Shown here: one piece after another, positions 50,840-59,649 of the stretch | Numbering within the stretch: position 1 is the first letter of the stretch | How the letters are laid out: the number at the start of each line of letters is the position of its first letter | DNA from: Pyrinomonadaceae bacterium | GTDB taxonomy: Bacteria; Acidobacteriota; Blastocatellia; Pyrinomonadales; Pyrinomonadaceae | Reading direction: 5' to 3' | Length of the DNA stretch: 64,000 bases | NCBI GenBank assembly: GCA_036277115.1 | Contig: DASUNM010000023.1 | Coordinates: 434,001 to 498,000 of the forward strand | Program-made: the position numbers and the translations under genes | The notes under the pieces: generated by a model | Database searches by the model: none | Told to the model about the DNA's origin: nothing | What the model saw: only the letters and a program-made list of their open reading frames with translations

Positions 50840-53434
50840 ATGCGCTTAGACAAATTCACCCTTCGCGGGCAGGAAGTGATTCAATCGGCCATTGAACTGG
50901 CTGAACGAACTCAGAACCAGCAGGTTGAACCTGAACATATGCTTTGTGCGATGCTCGATCAGCCCGAGGGCATCGTGCGTCCGCTGCTCGGCAAAATCGG
51001 CGCGAACATTCAGGTTGTTAAGAATGATTGCGAAGCGGCGGTGGGGCGCTTTCCTCGCGTTCAGGGCGGACAGCAATACTTCTCTTCCCGTTTAAGCCAG
51101 GTTTTCACGGCCGCCCAAAAACAAGCCGATGAGATGAAGGACGAGTACGTTTCGACCGAACATCTGCTTTTGGCGATTGCGGATGAGAAGACCGGCGACG
51201 CCGGCAAGATTCTCCGCCAGCATGGTGTTAATCGCGATGACTTGCTCAAGGTGATCGAGCAAACACGCGGCGGCACGCGCATCACCGATCAAAATGCCGA
51301 GGCTAATTACCAGGCATTGGCGAAATACGCGCGCGATCTGACTGACCTGGCGCGACAAGGAAAGCTTGATCCGGTCATCGGACGTGACGATGAAATTCGA
51401 CGCACGATCCAGGTGCTTTCCCGCCGGACAAAGAACAACCCCGTGCTCATCGGTGAGCCCGGCGTCGGCAAAACTGCGATCGTGGAAGGCCTGGCACAAC
51501 GAATAGTTTCAGGCGACGTGCCGGAAACGCTCCGCAACAAGCGGCTGGTCGGTCTGGATCTCGGATCCATGCTGGCCGGCGCTAAGTACCGCGGTGAGTT
51601 TGAAGATCGCTTGAAGGCGGTCTTAAAGGAAATCGAAACGGCGCAGGGTCAGATCATTCTGTTCATCGATGAGCTGCACACTCTCGTCGGCGCGGGCGCT
51701 GCCGAAGGCGCAATCGACGCTTCCAATATGTTGAAGCCGGCCTTGGCGCGAGGAGAGTTGCGCTGCGTGGGCGCGACCACGCTCAACGAATACAAGAAGT
51801 ACATTGAAAAGGACGCCGCGCTCGAGCGCCGCTTCCAGCAGGTTTATGTCGGGGAACCGACAGTCGAAGACACGATTGCAATTCTGCGCGGCTTGAAAGA
51901 ACGCTACGAAGTTCATCACGGCGTCCGCATCAAGGATACGGCGATTGTGGCGGCGGCGACGCTTTCGAATCGCTATATCACCGATCGTTTTCTGCCCGAC
52001 AAAGCGATTGACTTGATCGACGAAGCCGCTTCGCGGCTGCGCATTGAGATCGATTCGCTGCCCCAGGAGATCGATCAGCTTGAACGCGAAATCATGCAGC
52101 TCGAGATCGAGCGGCAGGCACTACAGCGCGAAGAAGACGACCGCTCAAAAGCGCGTCTGCGCGAGATTGAACAACGCATCGCCGACCTGAAGGAAAAATC
52201 TTCGGGCATGAAAGCCAAATGGCAGTCGGAGAAAGCCATCATCGAGCACATCCGCGGCGCCAAAGCGGAACTCGAACAGCTCAAGTTGCAGTTGGATCAG
52301 GCGCGGAACGCCGGCGACCTGGGGCGTGCCTCTGAGATTCAATACGGCCAAATCCCCGAACTGCAGCAGAAACTTGAAGCCGAGCAAGCCAAACTCGGGA
52401 CACTGCAATTGGACGGCGTCACTCTGAAAGAAGAAGTTGACGAAGAGGATGTTGCCGAGGTCGTCGCAAAATGGACCGGCGTGCCGGTTACAAAGATGCT
52501 CGAAGGCGAGATGCACAAGCTTCTGGGAATGGAAGAGCGCCTTCGTCAGCGCGTGATTGGCCAGGACGAAGCACTACAAGCGGTTGCCAATGCTGTGCGA
52601 CGCGCCCGCGCGGGTTTGCAGGATCCGAATCGGCCGGTCGGCTCGTTCATCTTTCTGGGACCGACGGGCGTCGGCAAAACGGAAACGGCGCGCGCCCTCG
52701 CTGAGTTTCTTTTTGACGATGAGCGCTCGATGGTGCGCCTCGACATGTCTGAGTACATGGAGAAGCACGCGGTGGCGCGAATGATCGGCGCGCCGCCGGG
52801 GTATGTCGGATACGAGGAAGGCGGTCAACTTACGGAAGCCGTTCGTCGGCGGCCTTACGCCGTGATTCTTTTTGACGAGATCGAAAAGGCGCATGCGGAC
52901 GTATTCAATGTCTTGCTTCAGATTCTGGATGACGGTCGATTGACGGACTCAAAAGGCCGAACGGTTGATTTCAAGAACACCGTTCTGATCATGACTTCGA
53001 ATCTGGGCTCGCGTGAGATTCAAGAGGTAAGCGACGACGAGAAGCAGGTGCGTGAGGCGGTGACGCAGGTTCTACAGGATCACTTCAAACCTGAGTTCTT
53101 GAATCGAATTGACGACATAGTGATCTTTCATCGGTTGTCGCGCGACCAGATCAGTCAAATTGTGGACGTTCAACTTGAACGACTGCGACAGATGTTGCAC
53201 GAACGTAACATTTCGATCGTGCTCGACAATTCGGCGAAGGAGTTGCTGGCGCGCGAAGGATACGATCCGAGTTATGGTGCGCGGCCGCTGAAACGCGCGA
53301 TTCAGACGCTGATCCAGAACCCGCTGGCCATGAAACTCTTACAGGGAGACATCCAGCCGGGCCAAACGGTGACAGTGTCAGCGCAGGATGGTGAACTGGT
53401 CTTTCATACGAACACGGCTGCCGCCGCGGCATAA
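50840..53434 (+). CDS. clpB: ClpB disaggregase
   Basis: 864 residues, full length for ClpB. N-domain about 1-145, AAA+ domain 1 with Walker A Lys211 (GEPGVGKT), the long coiled-coil M-domain about 400-525, and AAA+ domain 2 with Walker A Lys613 (GPTGVGKT). Sensor and arginine-finger regions look intact. The ClpP-docking [LI]-G-[FL] loop is absent after [10 protein letters not shown], as expected for a disaggregase that does not feed ClpP. It works with DnaK to dissolve aggregates. It is expressed with hsp20 upstream; the next Clp gene is 183 bases downstream. Confidence 0.97.
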
Positions 53435-53474
53435 TGTCGCCCACGGACGACGGCTTTGTGAGAAACTGACGATG

Positions 53475-53540
53475 GCAAGCGAATTGCTTGCTGTTTGGCG
53501 GGAATATTCCTGTTGCACTGAAACGCAACGGCGAATATTC
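53475..53540. promoter_or_regulatory. Three dyad-symmetric sites between clpB and clpA/C-like genes
   Basis: GCAAGC-5-GCTTGC (53475-53491), GGAATATTCC (53501-53510) and GAATATTC (53533-53540). The two GAATATTC centres are 31 bases apart, close to three helical turns. The layout suits a dimeric repressor or activator acting on the downstream gene; the protein is unknown. Confidence 0.4.
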
Positions 53541-53617
53541 TCTCGGCATCAAACAATGCTTCAATTGTGCGGCGCGATTGAAGCATACGGGGATCGGAAA
53601 CGAGGAATTTCGAGCAC

Positions 53618-55906
53618 ATGGTTGATCTCGGGGCATACAAAGATAAATTCGGCGATAGCGGTCAGCGAGTGCTCGAAAAGGCGCTGGGCGAATCGAGACG
53701 TCGCGACCAAAACTACATAACCGTAGAACACATCATTCACGCACTCGCGAAGGAAGAGTCGGAACTTTTTAACTCAACTATTCGGAGCCTCGCCGTGGAT
53801 CCCGACGCGGTCACCGGCGCAATCGATCGCCGTCTTGATAACGCGCGCCAACACGTGGGAAAAGGATTCCGGATCGCGCCTGACACGACAGACCTTTTCA
53901 AGCGCGCGATGGAGCGGGCTCGCTCGCGCGGTCGCAAGACAATCGAATCGACAGACATCTTTGACGTACTGTCTAAGGACGACAGTCTTTTGGTAGAAGT
54001 CCTGCGCGGCCTGGGCGCCACACCCGACCTGGTTGTCGAGCGCATCAAAACTAACGTTGATGAGCGTGAGCGTCAGGAAGAACAATACCGGAAGAAGTTT
54101 GAGCTGCCCGCATATTTGAAACACTTCGGCGTGTCGCTCAATCGCATGGCGCGCCAGGATAAAATTGCGCCGACCATCGGGCGCGAAAGAGAAATTCAGC
54201 AAATCATCGAGATTCTTTGTCACCGTGAACGGGCGAACTCGCCGATGCTGGTCGGTGAGCCCGGCGTAGGCAAGACTGCAGTGATCGAAGGCCTGGCCCG
54301 GATGATTGAACTCGAACCCGAGAGAGTTCCCGCGCGCTTGCGTAACTCGCACGTAGTGCAATTGCAGATGGGCGGCATTGTGGCCGGCACCATGCTGCGG
54401 GGCATGTTCGAAGAGCGCATCAAAGGCATCATCGACGAAGTCAAAGAACGCGACAATCTGATCCTGTTCATCGACGAAGCGCACACGATCATCGGCGCCG
54501 GCGCCGCCCTCGGCACGTCTTCGGACGCCGCGAACATGTTCAAGTCGTCATTGGCAAAGGGCGAACTCCGGATCATCGGCGCGACTACGTTGACGGAGTA
54601 CAAGGAGTACATCGCGGAAGACGAGGCGCTGGCGCGACGCTTCCGTCTGGTGAAAGTAGACGAGCCTTCGATCGTTGAGACACGCGAAATTCTGCTCGGC
54701 GTCCGGCCTCGTCTGGAAAGAAACTACTCAGTTCAAATTTCCGACGAAGCGATCAACACGGCCCTCGAAATGGCGCCGAAGTACATCCGGAATCTGCATC
54801 TACCGGACAAAGCGATCGGCTGGCTCGACACTGCTGCGGTTAAAGTTGAAATCAACGAACCGCACACAATGGTCGTAAAGCCCGAGCATGTGATCGACGT
54901 GATTTCGCAGGAGTCGCGGATTCCGCGCGACATGATCTTTCGCGACACGAGTGATCGGTTCGCGTTGATCGAAGCGCAGCTGGCGCAGCGAGTCATTGGC
55001 CAAAAGGACGCTATCAAAGCTGTCGCGCAGCGCCTGCGTTTGAACAAAGGACCGCTGAAAGAATCGCATTACAAACCTGACGGCGTGTTGCTGTTCCTCG
55101 GTCCGACCGGTGTCGGCAAAACAGAATTGGCCAAAGCCGTCGCCGAATTCATGTTCGGTGATGAGCAGAAGATGATTCGCCTCGACATGTCGGAATACAG
55201 CGACGGCACCATCGGCATCGAGAAACTGATCGGCATGCCGCGCGGCATTGTGGGTTCAGAGCGCGGCGGAATTCTGACTGAGCAATTGCGCGAGAATCCA
55301 TATACGGTGCTGCTGCTCGACGAAGTCGAGAAAGCCAATCCGTACCTGATGAATCTGTTCCTGCAAGCTTTCGACGAAGGCTGGCTGACGGACGGTCGTG
55401 GTCGTCGCGTTTACTTATCTGACGCCATCGTGATCATGACCTCGAACCTCGGCTCAGATAGTTTCAAGAAGTTCGAAAAGCCCCTCGGCTTTGGCACCAA
55501 GACCAGCAACGACTTTCGTCAGGTAAAGAAAGATGTGATGAAAGCTGCCGAGGCGCGCTTCTCGCCTGAGTTCCGCAATCGCATCGACGAGATTATTGTC
55601 TTCTCGCCGTTGACGATGGACGAGGTGAAGCAGATCGCGCAACTCTATCTCGACAAGACGCGCCGCCAGATGAAACGGCAGGGCAAGTTATTCGAGGTCA
55701 CGGAAGCGGCGGTAGAGCACGTCACGGAAAAAGGCTACAGCACGCAATACGGCGCGCGTTTCCTGAAGCGTTACATCGACGAACGCGTTAAGCTGCCGAT
55801 TACAAACATGTGGAAGCAGTCGTCGCGATTCGTCGTCGATGTCGAGGACGGTGAAATCATCGCGCGCGCTGAAGACGGTTCGGTCGTTCAATCAAATGGC
55901 GACTAG
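53618..55906 (+). CDS. ClpA/ClpC-like AAA+ unfoldase with ClpP-binding loop
   Basis: 762 residues. A Clp N-domain (about 5-150) precedes AAA+ domain 1 (Walker A Lys219, GEPGVGKT) and domain 2 (Walker A Lys501, GPTGVGKT). It has no long M-domain, like ClpA. In domain 2 the sequence KPLGFG places Leu-Gly-Phe at residues 623-625, where ClpA, ClpC and ClpX have the tripeptide that docks on ClpP. So it probably unfolds substrates for the ClpP protease. No clpP, clpS or McsB gene is in the window. It follows clpB with its own small intergenic region and ends at a strong terminator. Confidence 0.88.
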   Translation: MVDLGAYKDKFGDSGQRVLEKALGESRRRDQNYITVEHIIHALAKEESELFNSTIRSLAVDPDAVTGAIDRRLDNARQHVGKGFRIAPDTTDLFKRAMERARSRGRKTIESTDIFDVLSKDDSLLVEVLRGLGATPDLVVERIKTNVDERERQEEQYRKKFELPAYLKHFGVSLNRMARQDKIAPTIGREREIQQIIEILCHRERANSPMLVGEPGVGKTAVIEGLARMIELEPERVPARLRNSHVVQLQMGGIVAGTMLRGMFEERIKGIIDEVKERDNLILFIDEAHTIIGAGAALGTSSDAANMFKSSLAKGELRIIGATTLTEYKEYIAEDEALARRFRLVKVDEPSIVETREILLGVRPRLERNYSVQISDEAINTALEMAPKYIRNLHLPDKAIGWLDTAAVKVEINEPHTMVVKPEHVIDVISQESRIPRDMIFRDTSDRFALIEAQLAQRVIGQKDAIKAVAQRLRLNKGPLKESHYKPDGVLLFLGPTGVGKTELAKAVAEFMFGDEQKMIRLDMSEYSDGTIGIEKLIGMPRGIVGSERGGILTEQLRENPYTVLLLDEVEKANPYLMNLFLQAFDEGWLTDGRGRRVYLSDAIVIMTSNLGSDSFKKFEKPLGFGTKTSNDFRQVKKDVMKAAEARFSPEFRNRIDEIIVFSPLTMDEVKQIAQLYLDKTRRQMKRQGKLFEVTEAAVEHVTEKGYSTQYGARFLKRYIDERVKLPITNMWKQSSRFVVDVEDGEIIARAEDGSVVQSNGD

Positions 55907-57318: not shown

Positions 57319-59250
57319 TCAGTTATTCGGTTCGCGTTCGTCGAGGAGCCGGCCAATAGTTCCCACCAGCTTATCGACGGCTTCGGTCTTTCGCAGAAAA
57401 GCGTCAACGCCGGCACGCCAGGCTTCTTTTTCGACATCGTCAGCTGAGACCATGATGATTGGCAAGGTGCGTCGGTGGACGATGCTGCGAACCCTCAGGA
57501 TAAGCTCAAGTCCGCTCAACCCGGGCAGATTGTTATCGACAATCAGCACGTCACACCGCGCACTCGTCTTTAAGATTTCCCACGCTGCCAGCCCGTCCGA
57601 GCACGACTGGACATGGAATCCACCGTTAGACAGCCTTTCGTTTACGCGTCGCGCCAGGGGTCTGTTGTCTTCGACGTGCAGGATCGCTAGCTGATCGGGA
57701 TCAATCTCGGGCTCCGCGGTGGCAGTTCTTTGTTTAGTCCGCGCGGGTTGCGAAAACAAATGCCGTCGCCGCTTTCGCACCGCCGTACGGTGCCCGATCA
57801 GATCCTTGTGCCGGTTGTTGAGCAGCGACACGAGACTCTGGTGATGTTTGAAGCCCAGCATTTGCGAGGCTTTCGTTACGGAACCGGATGCTTCGCGAAG
57901 CGAGCGTTCGATCAGGTTTCTTTCGATTTTCTTGATTTCCCGGCGCAGGGAAAATCCCTCCCAAGAATCGGGCTTCGGCATAAAACTCCCGCCGGGTTTC
58001 TCCACCAGCAACGCGGCAATCACTTTACGCGCGCAGGAAATCAGGCGCTTGTGCGTCGCCGGATCCTGAGAATGCTCGAGCAACTCTACGGCCGACTGGT
58101 AGATCTCCACGAGCTGCCTGACTCCCGTTTGACTGCCAAGTTCCTCGACAATCGTCAGGTGCGCGCGACCTGAACCTTCGCGGTCGCCGACTGTTTCCGC
58201 AACAACGATCGCTCGTTGTAGCAGCAACGCGGCGCGCGCCTCGTTCCCCGTGCGGGCCGCGATAATTCCCTGGGTCGTAAGCGCCTCAGCCAGGACCGCC
58301 TGTTGTCCGCCCTTCTCGAGGACTCTGACGGCGGCCTTGATCGTCCGCTCGGCGCTCTTCAGGTTACCTTCGGCGAGAAGAGTACGCGCACGCGTCTCAT
58401 CAACCTGCGCGGCGGTTCCAACGTCCTTCAGTTGCAGAAACAGATCGCGAGCACGATCCAGATGGTAGTGCGCGTCCTGATACCGCCCGATGGTGAAGTA
58501 AAGAAAGCCGAGATTGTTTTCGACACGAGCGAGATGGCGCGTGTTTCCTGCTTCTTCAAAATGAATACCGGCAGCAGCGTATTCGATGAGAGCGCGATCG
58601 ATATAATCCTCGCGGTTTTCAGGCACGGCGAGTCGCCGGAAAATCATTCCGTAATGGTTATGAAAACTTCCTTTTAAAGCGGCGTCTAAACTTTGTTCTA
58701 CGAGAGGAGCGGCCATCTCAGAGTACCGAATCGCCTCCTGAAGCCTTTGAGCGTAAATCTCAACCAGTCCAGCACGAATTAGCAGTATCGCTTTTAAATC
58801 GGAATCGTTGCTGCCTACCATCCTTAGCGCATCGTCGAGTGTAACCCGGGCCTCGTCGTACGCACCTTCGCGCCAATAACACAATGCAAGCTCACCACGG
58901 GATTCAGCCACGCGCTCGGTCAAGCCCTGCGCTTGAAAAATATCTGTGCTCCGCGTGATGAGGTTCTTCGCGGTCTCTTGGCTTGCCGGAGTTTGGTCTG
59001 CTCCACCTAGACAGCTTGCTAACGCGCCAATTCTGAGTAGAACTTCCGCTTTCCGATCTTCGTCAAGCCCCAGCACTCTCGGCGGCTCGTTGCGATCGGG
59101 CCAGAATGCGATGAGAGCTTCATAAGCTTCTTCGTATTCCCCAGCCTTTTCGAGCCGTTTGGCCACGCGGCAGGCAAGGTCAGCGGTTTCATTAAGTGAA
59201 AACTCGCTATTATCGCCTCGGAGCGGAGTTAGCTGCGACGTTAAGTTCAT
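57319..59250 (-). CDS. TPR-Fis-type HTH-receiver regulator
   Basis: 643 residues from the ATG at 59250; an ATG at 59271 would add seven residues, and AAAGG before the inner one favours it. Residues about 15-415 are TPR-like helices (for example LARVENNLGFLYFTIGRYQD). About 440-500 is a Fis-type helix-turn-helix (IERNLIERSLREASGSVTKA then SQMLGFKHHQSLVSLLNNRH), followed by a basic tract. The C-terminal receiver (about 530-640) has the phosphoacceptor in VLIVDNNLPG. Having the receiver at the end and no AAA+ domain is unusual. TPR-HTH regulators often bind peptides or partner proteins. It is divergent, 153 bases away, from the small exported peptide gene. Confidence 0.85.
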   Translation of the reverse strand: MNLTSQLTPLRGDNSEFSLNETADLACRVAKRLEKAGEYEEAYEALIAFWPDRNEPPRVLGLDEDRKAEVLLRIGALASCLGGADQTPASQETAKNLITRSTDIFQAQGLTERVAESRGELALCYWREGAYDEARVTLDDALRMVGSNDSDLKAILLIRAGLVEIYAQRLQEAIRYSEMAAPLVEQSLDAALKGSFHNHYGMIFRRLAVPENREDYIDRALIEYAAAGIHFEEAGNTRHLARVENNLGFLYFTIGRYQDAHYHLDRARDLFLQLKDVGTAAQVDETRARTLLAEGNLKSAERTIKAAVRVLEKGGQQAVLAEALTTQGIIAARTGNEARAALLLQRAIVVAETVGDREGSGRAHLTIVEELGSQTGVRQLVEIYQSAVELLEHSQDPATHKRLISCARKVIAALLVEKPGGSFMPKPDSWEGFSLRREIKKIERNLIERSLREASGSVTKASQMLGFKHHQSLVSLLNNRHKDLIGHRTAVRKRRRHLFSQPARTKQRTATAEPEIDPDQLAILHVEDNRPLARRVNERLSNGGFHVQSCSDGLAAWEILKTSARCDVLIVDNNLPGLSGLELILRVRSIVHRRTLPIIMVSADDVEKEAWRAGVDAFLRKTEAVDKLVGTIGRLLDEREPNN

Positions 59251-59403
59251 GTGAGGTGGGCCTTTGTCCATGAATGATAAAATCGTGGCGCTGCGAAGGA
59301 TCTGCGCGGATTGCTGATCTCATAAGCCTTACTCAAACGGCTGAAACGCTTCGCATTGTTGTTCAACTTCGCAAAGTCAGTCAACGACCTAAGGAGAAAC
59401 GAA

Positions 59404-59649
59404 ATGACATATCTGAGAAAACTATCTCTCTCTTTGACCTTCATCTGTGTTTTGTCGGCGGCCGCTTTCGCCGGAGAAACCGGGACACCTCCGTGCGCCC
59501 CGGGTGAAACGCTCTCGCCACCGTGCCCCGGTCAGTCCGTAAATGAACCTTCGTCCCTTCCCGGAGAGACTTTGTCTCCACCGGCTGCGCCCGTGGTCGA
59601 TATAACCGACCTCACGGAAGCTGTGATGTGGGCGCTGTCACTGTTCTAA
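59404..59649 (+). CDS. Small exported Pro-rich peptide with PGETLSPP repeats
   Basis: 81 residues, real by its perfect AAGGAG ribosome binding site (59391-59396) and clear export signal. The signal peptide (1-23) ends in AFA before GETGTPP. The mature 58 residues contain CAPGETLSPPC (31-41) and a second PGETLSPP (53-60), two cysteines (31 and 41) that could form a small loop, and an acidic/hydrophobic tail DITDLTEAVMWALSLF. I know no function. Its place, divergent from a TPR-HTH-receiver regulator, suggests a secreted signal or modulator; this is an inference. A 10-bp hairpin follows the stop codon. Confidence 0.8.
   Translation: MTYLRKLSLSLTFICVLSAAAFAGETGTPPCAPGETLSPPCPGQSVNEPSSLPGETLSPPAAPVVDITDLTEAVMWALSLF

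Follow-up and report, generated by a model that had tools for sequence, protein, structure and literature searches.

The window analyzed here, by which we mean the whole 64,000-nucleotide stretch (C23:434001-498000), comes from the 4.85-Mb genome of a soil bacterium of the Acidobacteriota. It holds a divergent pair made up of a regulator gene, referred to below as the receptor, and a gene for a small propeptide with a predicted export signal. The receptor gene (57319..59271, minus strand) encodes 650 aa when read from its first ATG; the second ATG, at 59250, is the start position in homologues and is likely the true receptor start. Counted from this second ATG the two start codons are 153 bp apart (132 bp from the first), and the 153-base spacing given in the initial annotation agrees with the homologue-supported start.

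Three domains were located in the receptor, all on the minus strand: a TPR superhelix (residues 26-424; 58000..59196), which we propose as the peptide-binding input, a Fis-type (HTH_8) DNA-binding domain (residues 442-494; 57790..57948) and a receiver (REC) domain (residues 528-646; 57334..57690). Pfam matched TPR_12 (E 5e-12), Response_reg (E 3e-16) and, weakly, HTH_8 (E 0.013) in this protein; among 57 aligned homologues TPR_12 was present in all 57 and HTH_8 was matched in 46. The AlphaFold2 (AF2) model likewise consists of a TPR superhelix, an HTH and a REC domain, with a mean pLDDT of 92 and values above 90 over most of the TPR region, and contains no signal sequence or membrane segment. 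The receiver is intact and its fold matches the REC domain of ArlR (Z 21.6, rmsd 1.1). It is found in only 25 of the 57 aligned homologues and, being absent from more than half of the receptor family, is not the common input. Two consecutive genes for Clp/Hsp100-type ATPases (864 and 762 aa; window positions 50840-55906) lie a few kb from the pair.

The propeptide gene (59404..59649 from ATG to stop, stop included; plus strand) encodes 81 aa. Its ATG is preceded by TAAGGAGA, with the Shine-Dalgarno sequence AAGGAG at 59391..59396. A Sec-type signal sequence, MTYLRKLSLSLTFICVLSAAAFA (59404..59472), was called heuristically from the sequence and the conserved anatomy. Directly after the likely signal-peptidase site comes a first copy of a short word, GETGTPP (59473..59493), followed by two copies of GETLSPP (59503..59523 and 59563..59583) and by a hydrophobic C-terminal tail, ITDLTEAVMWALSLF (59602..59646), that is conserved in character; all of these features are on the plus strand. 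The two PGETLSPP copies are identical as protein and differ in 6 of their 8 codons.

Reading frames, Pfam and AF2 thus confirm the divergent TPR/Fis-HTH/receiver regulator and the 81-residue peptide, with its predicted export, of the initial annotation. Both of the PGETLSPP words reported there are present, but GETGTPP has to be added as a third, and PGETLSPP is merely the form that a variable word takes in this genus; GIIHTEK, GDIHIGK and GQVECPG are words of other paralogues. The possible two-cysteine loop did not hold up as a core feature: apart from the genus, only a few distant classes have the cysteines, and most relatives do not, which places the loop outside the core system.

Across the family, propeptides of about 50-110 aa share one order of parts: signal sequence, cleavage-like site, word, often a proline run, often the word again, and a hydrophobic tail (for example VTEIALSLLQSVLSLF). 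The n-h-c signal anatomy and an AxA site are clear in nearly all of them by the same heuristic call. The word is about 7 residues long, with the consensus G-x-[IMT]-x-x-[PGD]-x, and its G stands right behind the likely cleavage site.

Pairing of peptide and receptor genes

The pair in the window is one copy of a lineage-wide family found in metagenome-assembled genomes labelled Pyrinomonadaceae, Blastocatellia or Acidobacteria group 4. Relatives of the TPR-HTH part were detected in 31 genomes of 24 genera among 60 related genomes searched and, when 297 genomes of the phylum were searched, strong TPR-profile matches were confined to the Pyrinomonadaceae-type family. Within this family, 60 of 119 genomes carry receptors, with up to eight or more paralogues per genome whose words differ.

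Pairing was scored on 87 distinct regulators with a genuine start codon and 300 bp or more of upstream sequence. The filter accepted a divergent frame of 45-110 aa with a signal-sequence-like start at a distance of no more than 350 bp; its strict form also asked for a hydrophobic tail and a cleavage-like site. Of the 87 regulators, 80 are faced by a gene for such a small peptide, or 73 under the strict filter, against 9.4% (strict, 0.8%) for dinucleotide-shuffled upstream regions and 5/49 (strict, 0/49) for further long genes taken from these loci. Similarly, the peptide stands beside the receptor in 24/28 members of a second receptor collection and in 31/38 receptors from new genomes, the seven without it all belonging to one size class (475-483 aa). 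The divergent starts are mostly 70-175 bp apart.

The initial annotation had proposed searching acidobacterial genomes for peptide homologues beside TPR-HTH-REC-type genes, and had named homologues mostly without the regulator as evidence against its reading. The opposite was found: 78 of the 79 peptide-profile matches (E <= 1e-5) stand divergent to a TPR receptor. The sole orphan (L289:3094-3318), with GDIxSPG words, adjoins a REC/HD-GYP-like protein and no TPR receptor. At five loci (L144, L143, L299, L300, L303) two or three different peptides in tandem face one receptor, and such arrays are a likely route to new signal variants. In several genera (L185, L188, L193, L195, L197, L198) one receptor-peptide pair has a conserved location, with a TatA-like/upstream block on one side and a SurA-like gene on the other, and yet its word differs between genera.

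The word is often present in 2-5 copies per peptide, as in peptides with GDIGVG four times, GDLGTD five times or GNITVS-type words five times. Compared with shuffled sequence, 30 of 82 peptides contain a significant internal repeat at p < 0.05, and 25 at p < 0.01; the other 52 are without an exact repeat by this test. Over 29 repeated words, 102 codon differences were counted at 219 identical repeat residues, where free codon choice would give 136. Identical residues with differing codons indicate that the protein word was held while the DNA drifted. Moreover, copies within one peptide are more alike than those of different paralogues, both in one clade of seven peptides (p 0.0001), where a peptide's own copies agree at 35 of 42, against 25.7 with the copies of sister peptides, and in the genus (p 0.03). 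By analogy, the family peptides resemble multi-copy pheromone precursors, and Phr propeptides with duplicated pheromones have been described (PMC11343458).

Covariation of the word with the TPR domain

Coupling between word and receptor was analyzed in 82 peptide-receptor pairs. Word distance follows TPR distance when the HTH is held constant (partial r 0.37) but hardly follows HTH distance when the TPR is held constant (0.10). At the level of residues, receptor position 212 on a concave helix A (R212 here; codon 58636..58638, minus strand) covaries with word residue 2: when word residue 2 is D or E, position 212 is K or R in 49 of 52 pairs, and otherwise in 6 of 30 ([[49,3],[6,24]], Fisher 4e-12). 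A tree built without the tested columns shows 16 changes in each trait, and of its independent branch pairs 7-9 agree with this association and none oppose it (sign test p ~0.008). Where an acidic residue 2 meets a basic 212, words with E always have R there, and words with D have either K or R (p 2e-7; 6-7 independent pairs for, 0 against). A second site, position 130, is also on a concave helix A (L130 here; codon 58882..58884, minus strand) and covaries with word residue 6. When this residue is P, position 130 is non-aromatic in 44 of 44 pairs (p 7e-14), and with other residues it is often Y, W or F. On independent branches the score is 4-5 to 0 (p 0.125), which is not significant alone.

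An unbiased scan of 1872 site pairs ranked word residue 2 with position 212 second and word residue 6 with position 130 third. The top pair, word residue 3 with position 61, probably reflects lineage, T at word residue 3 being largely a feature of this genus. The top ten word-linked sites are all on concave helices. Over all sites, word-linked positions showed no significant enrichment in concave versus convex helices (p 0.21).

Predictions were fixed beforehand and then tried on 38 receptors from unused genomes. Position 212 was basic with 9 of 9 acidic words and with 2 of 19 others ([[9,0],[2,17]], p 8e-6). Both exceptions have GN words and a K212 with D/E213 directly behind it, a combination that had also occurred in the first set. 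The association of word residue 6 with position 130 was weaker out of sample (p 0.09). In the pooled set of 110 pairs, E goes with R in 29/31, D with K (18) or R (11) in 30, and Q with E at 212 in 5/6, while I, V or W go with K or R in 0/31. The covariation shows that word and TPR are co-adapted, and is silent on where the two meet.

These results bear on whether the two genes are simply inherited together, so that the statistics reflect shared descent. The pairs do duplicate and diverge as units, and simple distance correlations partly reflect that. However, the independent-branch pairs all point in one direction (7-9 to 0), and the chemistry is complementary and was upheld in new genomes. 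Genomic hitch-hiking is thus already disfavoured, and we give it hardly any credence.

The TPR model, with pLDDT mostly above 95, has RapF-PhrF among its top structural matches, over nearly its whole length (Z 30.5, 360 residues), as well as the Rap of phage phi3T with its pheromone (Z 30.5), RapJ with CSF (29.3) and NprR (28.6), and there is a weak sequence-profile match to NprR (E 7e-6). Scores for APPBP2 and APC/C subunits are similar to those for Rap, and the fold is therefore no proof by itself. In RapF, Arg2 of PhrF forms a salt bridge to the conserved Asp194 in TPR3, and the strictly conserved Asn227 in TPR4 holds the peptide backbone (PMC3601957). In our family, the partner of word residue 2, position 212, is on one concave helix and the invariant N253 (codon 58513..58515, minus strand) is on the next; N253 was kept in 28/28 new-genome pairs. 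It falls near RapF residue 226 when interpolated from the ends of the structural alignment, and is on this interpolation a candidate equivalent of RapF N227. An hhalign comparison of the TPR profile with the Rap of phage phi105 (probability 45%) was discarded, its register being apparently one repeat off.

Outputs, control region and proposed mechanism

Five outputs were found behind the one TPR input: HTH, HTH-REC, sigma-54 AAA+-HTH, HisKA-HATPase-REC and GGDEF-EAL. In a scan of 73 receptors, Sigma54_activat was present in 14 of the 16 long ones, nearly all with HTH_8; the remaining two are one GGDEF-EAL and one HisKA-HATPase-REC protein. Each long receptor still faces its own peptide. A constant input combined with exchangeable outputs argues for the TPR and its peptide as the sensing unit.

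The control region shared by the two genes lies between their start codons (59251..59403). In homologous regions a palindrome, TGCAA-N5/6-TTGCA, stands some 40 bp upstream of many receptor starts; in this genus it is degenerate. At 9 or more of 10 matches it occurs in 25 of 82 control regions, where 1.0 would be expected, and it is a candidate operator for autoregulation. The palindrome came to light in a scan for -24/-12 sigma-54 promoters before the peptide genes of AAA+ receptors, which itself gave no enrichment of good sites. In the most distant receptor class (upstream in L084-L086 and L149) a different palindrome, GATAC-N-GTATC, takes its place, and operator and HTH may have diverged together there. 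Cargo genes near the pairs were considered and rejected, the recurring neighbours being only orthologous backgrounds.

A surface or antimicrobial peptide would account for part of this picture: the small gene would be the product, the regulator would only control it, and the TPR would read some other ligand. The peptide is indeed proline-rich and predicted to be exported, with a hydrophobic tail and, in this genus, two cysteines, and simple regulation would suit two divergent genes that share a palindrome. Such a product nevertheless leaves unexplained why the word covaries with single TPR residues, why the word is tracked more closely by the TPR than by the HTH, and why the same kind of partner is found at kinase and GGDEF-EAL receptors. 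Furthermore, no maturation or immunity genes recur near the pairs. We consider this explanation very unlikely.

The reading that we regard as probable is that of a paralogous, RRNPP-like peptide-receptor cassette, in which the exported word returns, binds the TPR of its own receptor and switches the output. The small gene would give a propeptide exported by Sec, and cleavage after AxA would expose the word of about 7 residues, here GETxSPP. Periplasmic or extracellular proteases might then release one to five copies, and the word could re-enter the cytoplasm, for example through an oligopeptide ABC transporter; two SBP_bac_5 peptide-binding transport proteins are encoded in the genome, which makes peptide import possible. 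There it would bind as an extended chain, inside the concave groove that the TPR superhelix of its own receptor forms, with word residue 2 contacting position 212, residue 6 near position 130 and the invariant N253 gripping the backbone. Binding would switch the output, here the Fis-type HTH with its receiver, which would probably also act on the 153-bp control region and hence on its own propeptide gene. Covariation and the structural model point strongly to the word as the TPR ligand; proteolysis, re-import, autoregulation, use in cell-cell or self-sensing and the regulated targets are suggested more faintly. The suggestion of a group-specific peptide-signalling pair of the RRNPP kind in the initial annotation is thus supported by the 78/79 pairing, the repeated covariation and the Rap/NprR-like fold.

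The main rival shares recognition with this best reading and dispenses with import: the receptor would read unexported or unprocessed precursor in the cytoplasm and so sense, within a single cell, the state of Sec or of the envelope. The lack of a signal sequence or membrane segment in the receptor model suits such an export monitor, and since the word is already in the precursor the covariation fits equally. On the other hand, the many paralogues with differing words per genome, the repeats kept alike and the several outputs exceed the needs of a general stress sensor. We hold the export monitor to be unlikely.

Relation to known systems and other family members

The closest counterparts of the returning-word cassette are the Rap-Phr systems (RapF-PhrF, phi3T, phi105). 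Common to both are a short propeptide exported by Sec, next to a TPR receptor in the cytoplasm (predicted here), a full-length TPR fold match (Z 28-30.5), several pheromone copies in one propeptide, and the apparent mirroring of PhrF Arg2-Asp194 and Asn227 by word residue 2-R212 and N253, although the charge of the residue pair is reversed here. In contrast to Rap-Phr, the genes are divergent, and the word is at the mature N-terminus and is followed by a proline-rich linker and a hydrophobic tail. Rap is a phosphatase or anti-activator, whereas the outputs here are DNA-binding, AAA+, kinase or c-di-GMP domains; and known RRNPP systems were surveyed in Firmicutes, whereas this one is from Acidobacteriota. 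As proposed here, NprR-NprX and PlcR-PapR use a TPR domain to read a peptide and to control a DNA-binding domain; theirs is an N-terminal Xre-type HTH (HTH_3), while ours is a Fis-type HTH_8 at the C-terminal end, accompanied in some receptors by REC or AAA+. The long receptors share Sigma54_activat and HTH_8 with NtrC-type sigma-54 activators but have as input a TPR with a partner peptide and not a phosphorylated REC, and no clear -24/-12 promoter was seen before the peptide genes of these sigma-54-type receptors.

RRNPP membership was judged by a five-part signature (PMC10075063). The propeptide, at 81 aa, is within the range of 10-100 aa, the receptor contains peptide-binding-type TPRs, and the receptor and propeptide genes are directly adjacent, here divergent. 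Export by Sec with cleavage by signal peptidase I, another part of the signature, is predicted here from the heuristic signal calls. The receptor itself, at 650 aa, is longer than the 250-500 aa of the signature (about 450-530 aa in the REC-less sister class), and it has a C-terminal HTH_8 in place of the HTH_3 of the RNPP transcription-factor branch (PlcR, NprR, Rgg, ComR, PrgX). Because receptor length and HTH type depart from the signature, strict membership is not claimed, and the best reading is that the system works like RRNPP. Somewhat beyond this, we lean towards an independent radiation of intracellular peptide-pheromone TPR receptors in a Gram-negative phylum, with five outputs and with specificity set by a residue code that can be read from word and groove.

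A search of papers available without subscription found none linking RRNPP with Acidobacteria or describing these peptides. Acidobacteriota are abundant soil bacteria that are difficult to grow, and their communication is little understood. From the data one can predict particular 7-residue peptides, the receptor that goes with each and the residues governing specificity, so that the claim is open to test using synthetic peptides and a single purified domain. If the peptides do cross the Gram-negative envelope both ways, this would be notable in itself, and swapping the module into kinase and c-di-GMP outputs would give new orthogonal peptide sensors.

The genome under study encodes further members of the family, among them a second close pair on contig C2 and a distant pair on C27. 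On C2 the receptor (C2:151353-153280; the L035, L002 pair) is broken by stops or a frameshift. Its peptide gene (C2:153413-153679) is intact, with the words GQIPSGQ, GETSGPP and GQTSTPP, and is possibly a signal without its own receptor. Two family receptors are without an adjoining peptide (C24:78812-80734 and C27:910007-911491; L031, L032); both keep R212 and N253 and could listen to peptides from other loci. Finally, a winged-helix-type N-terminus is fused to the same type of TPR at L033:2166-6895 (C27:938-943 kb); this gene faces a 698-aa exported polysaccharide-lyase-like protein ending in PGESIGPPPTSPKP, after which a small cysteine-rich exported peptide is encoded.
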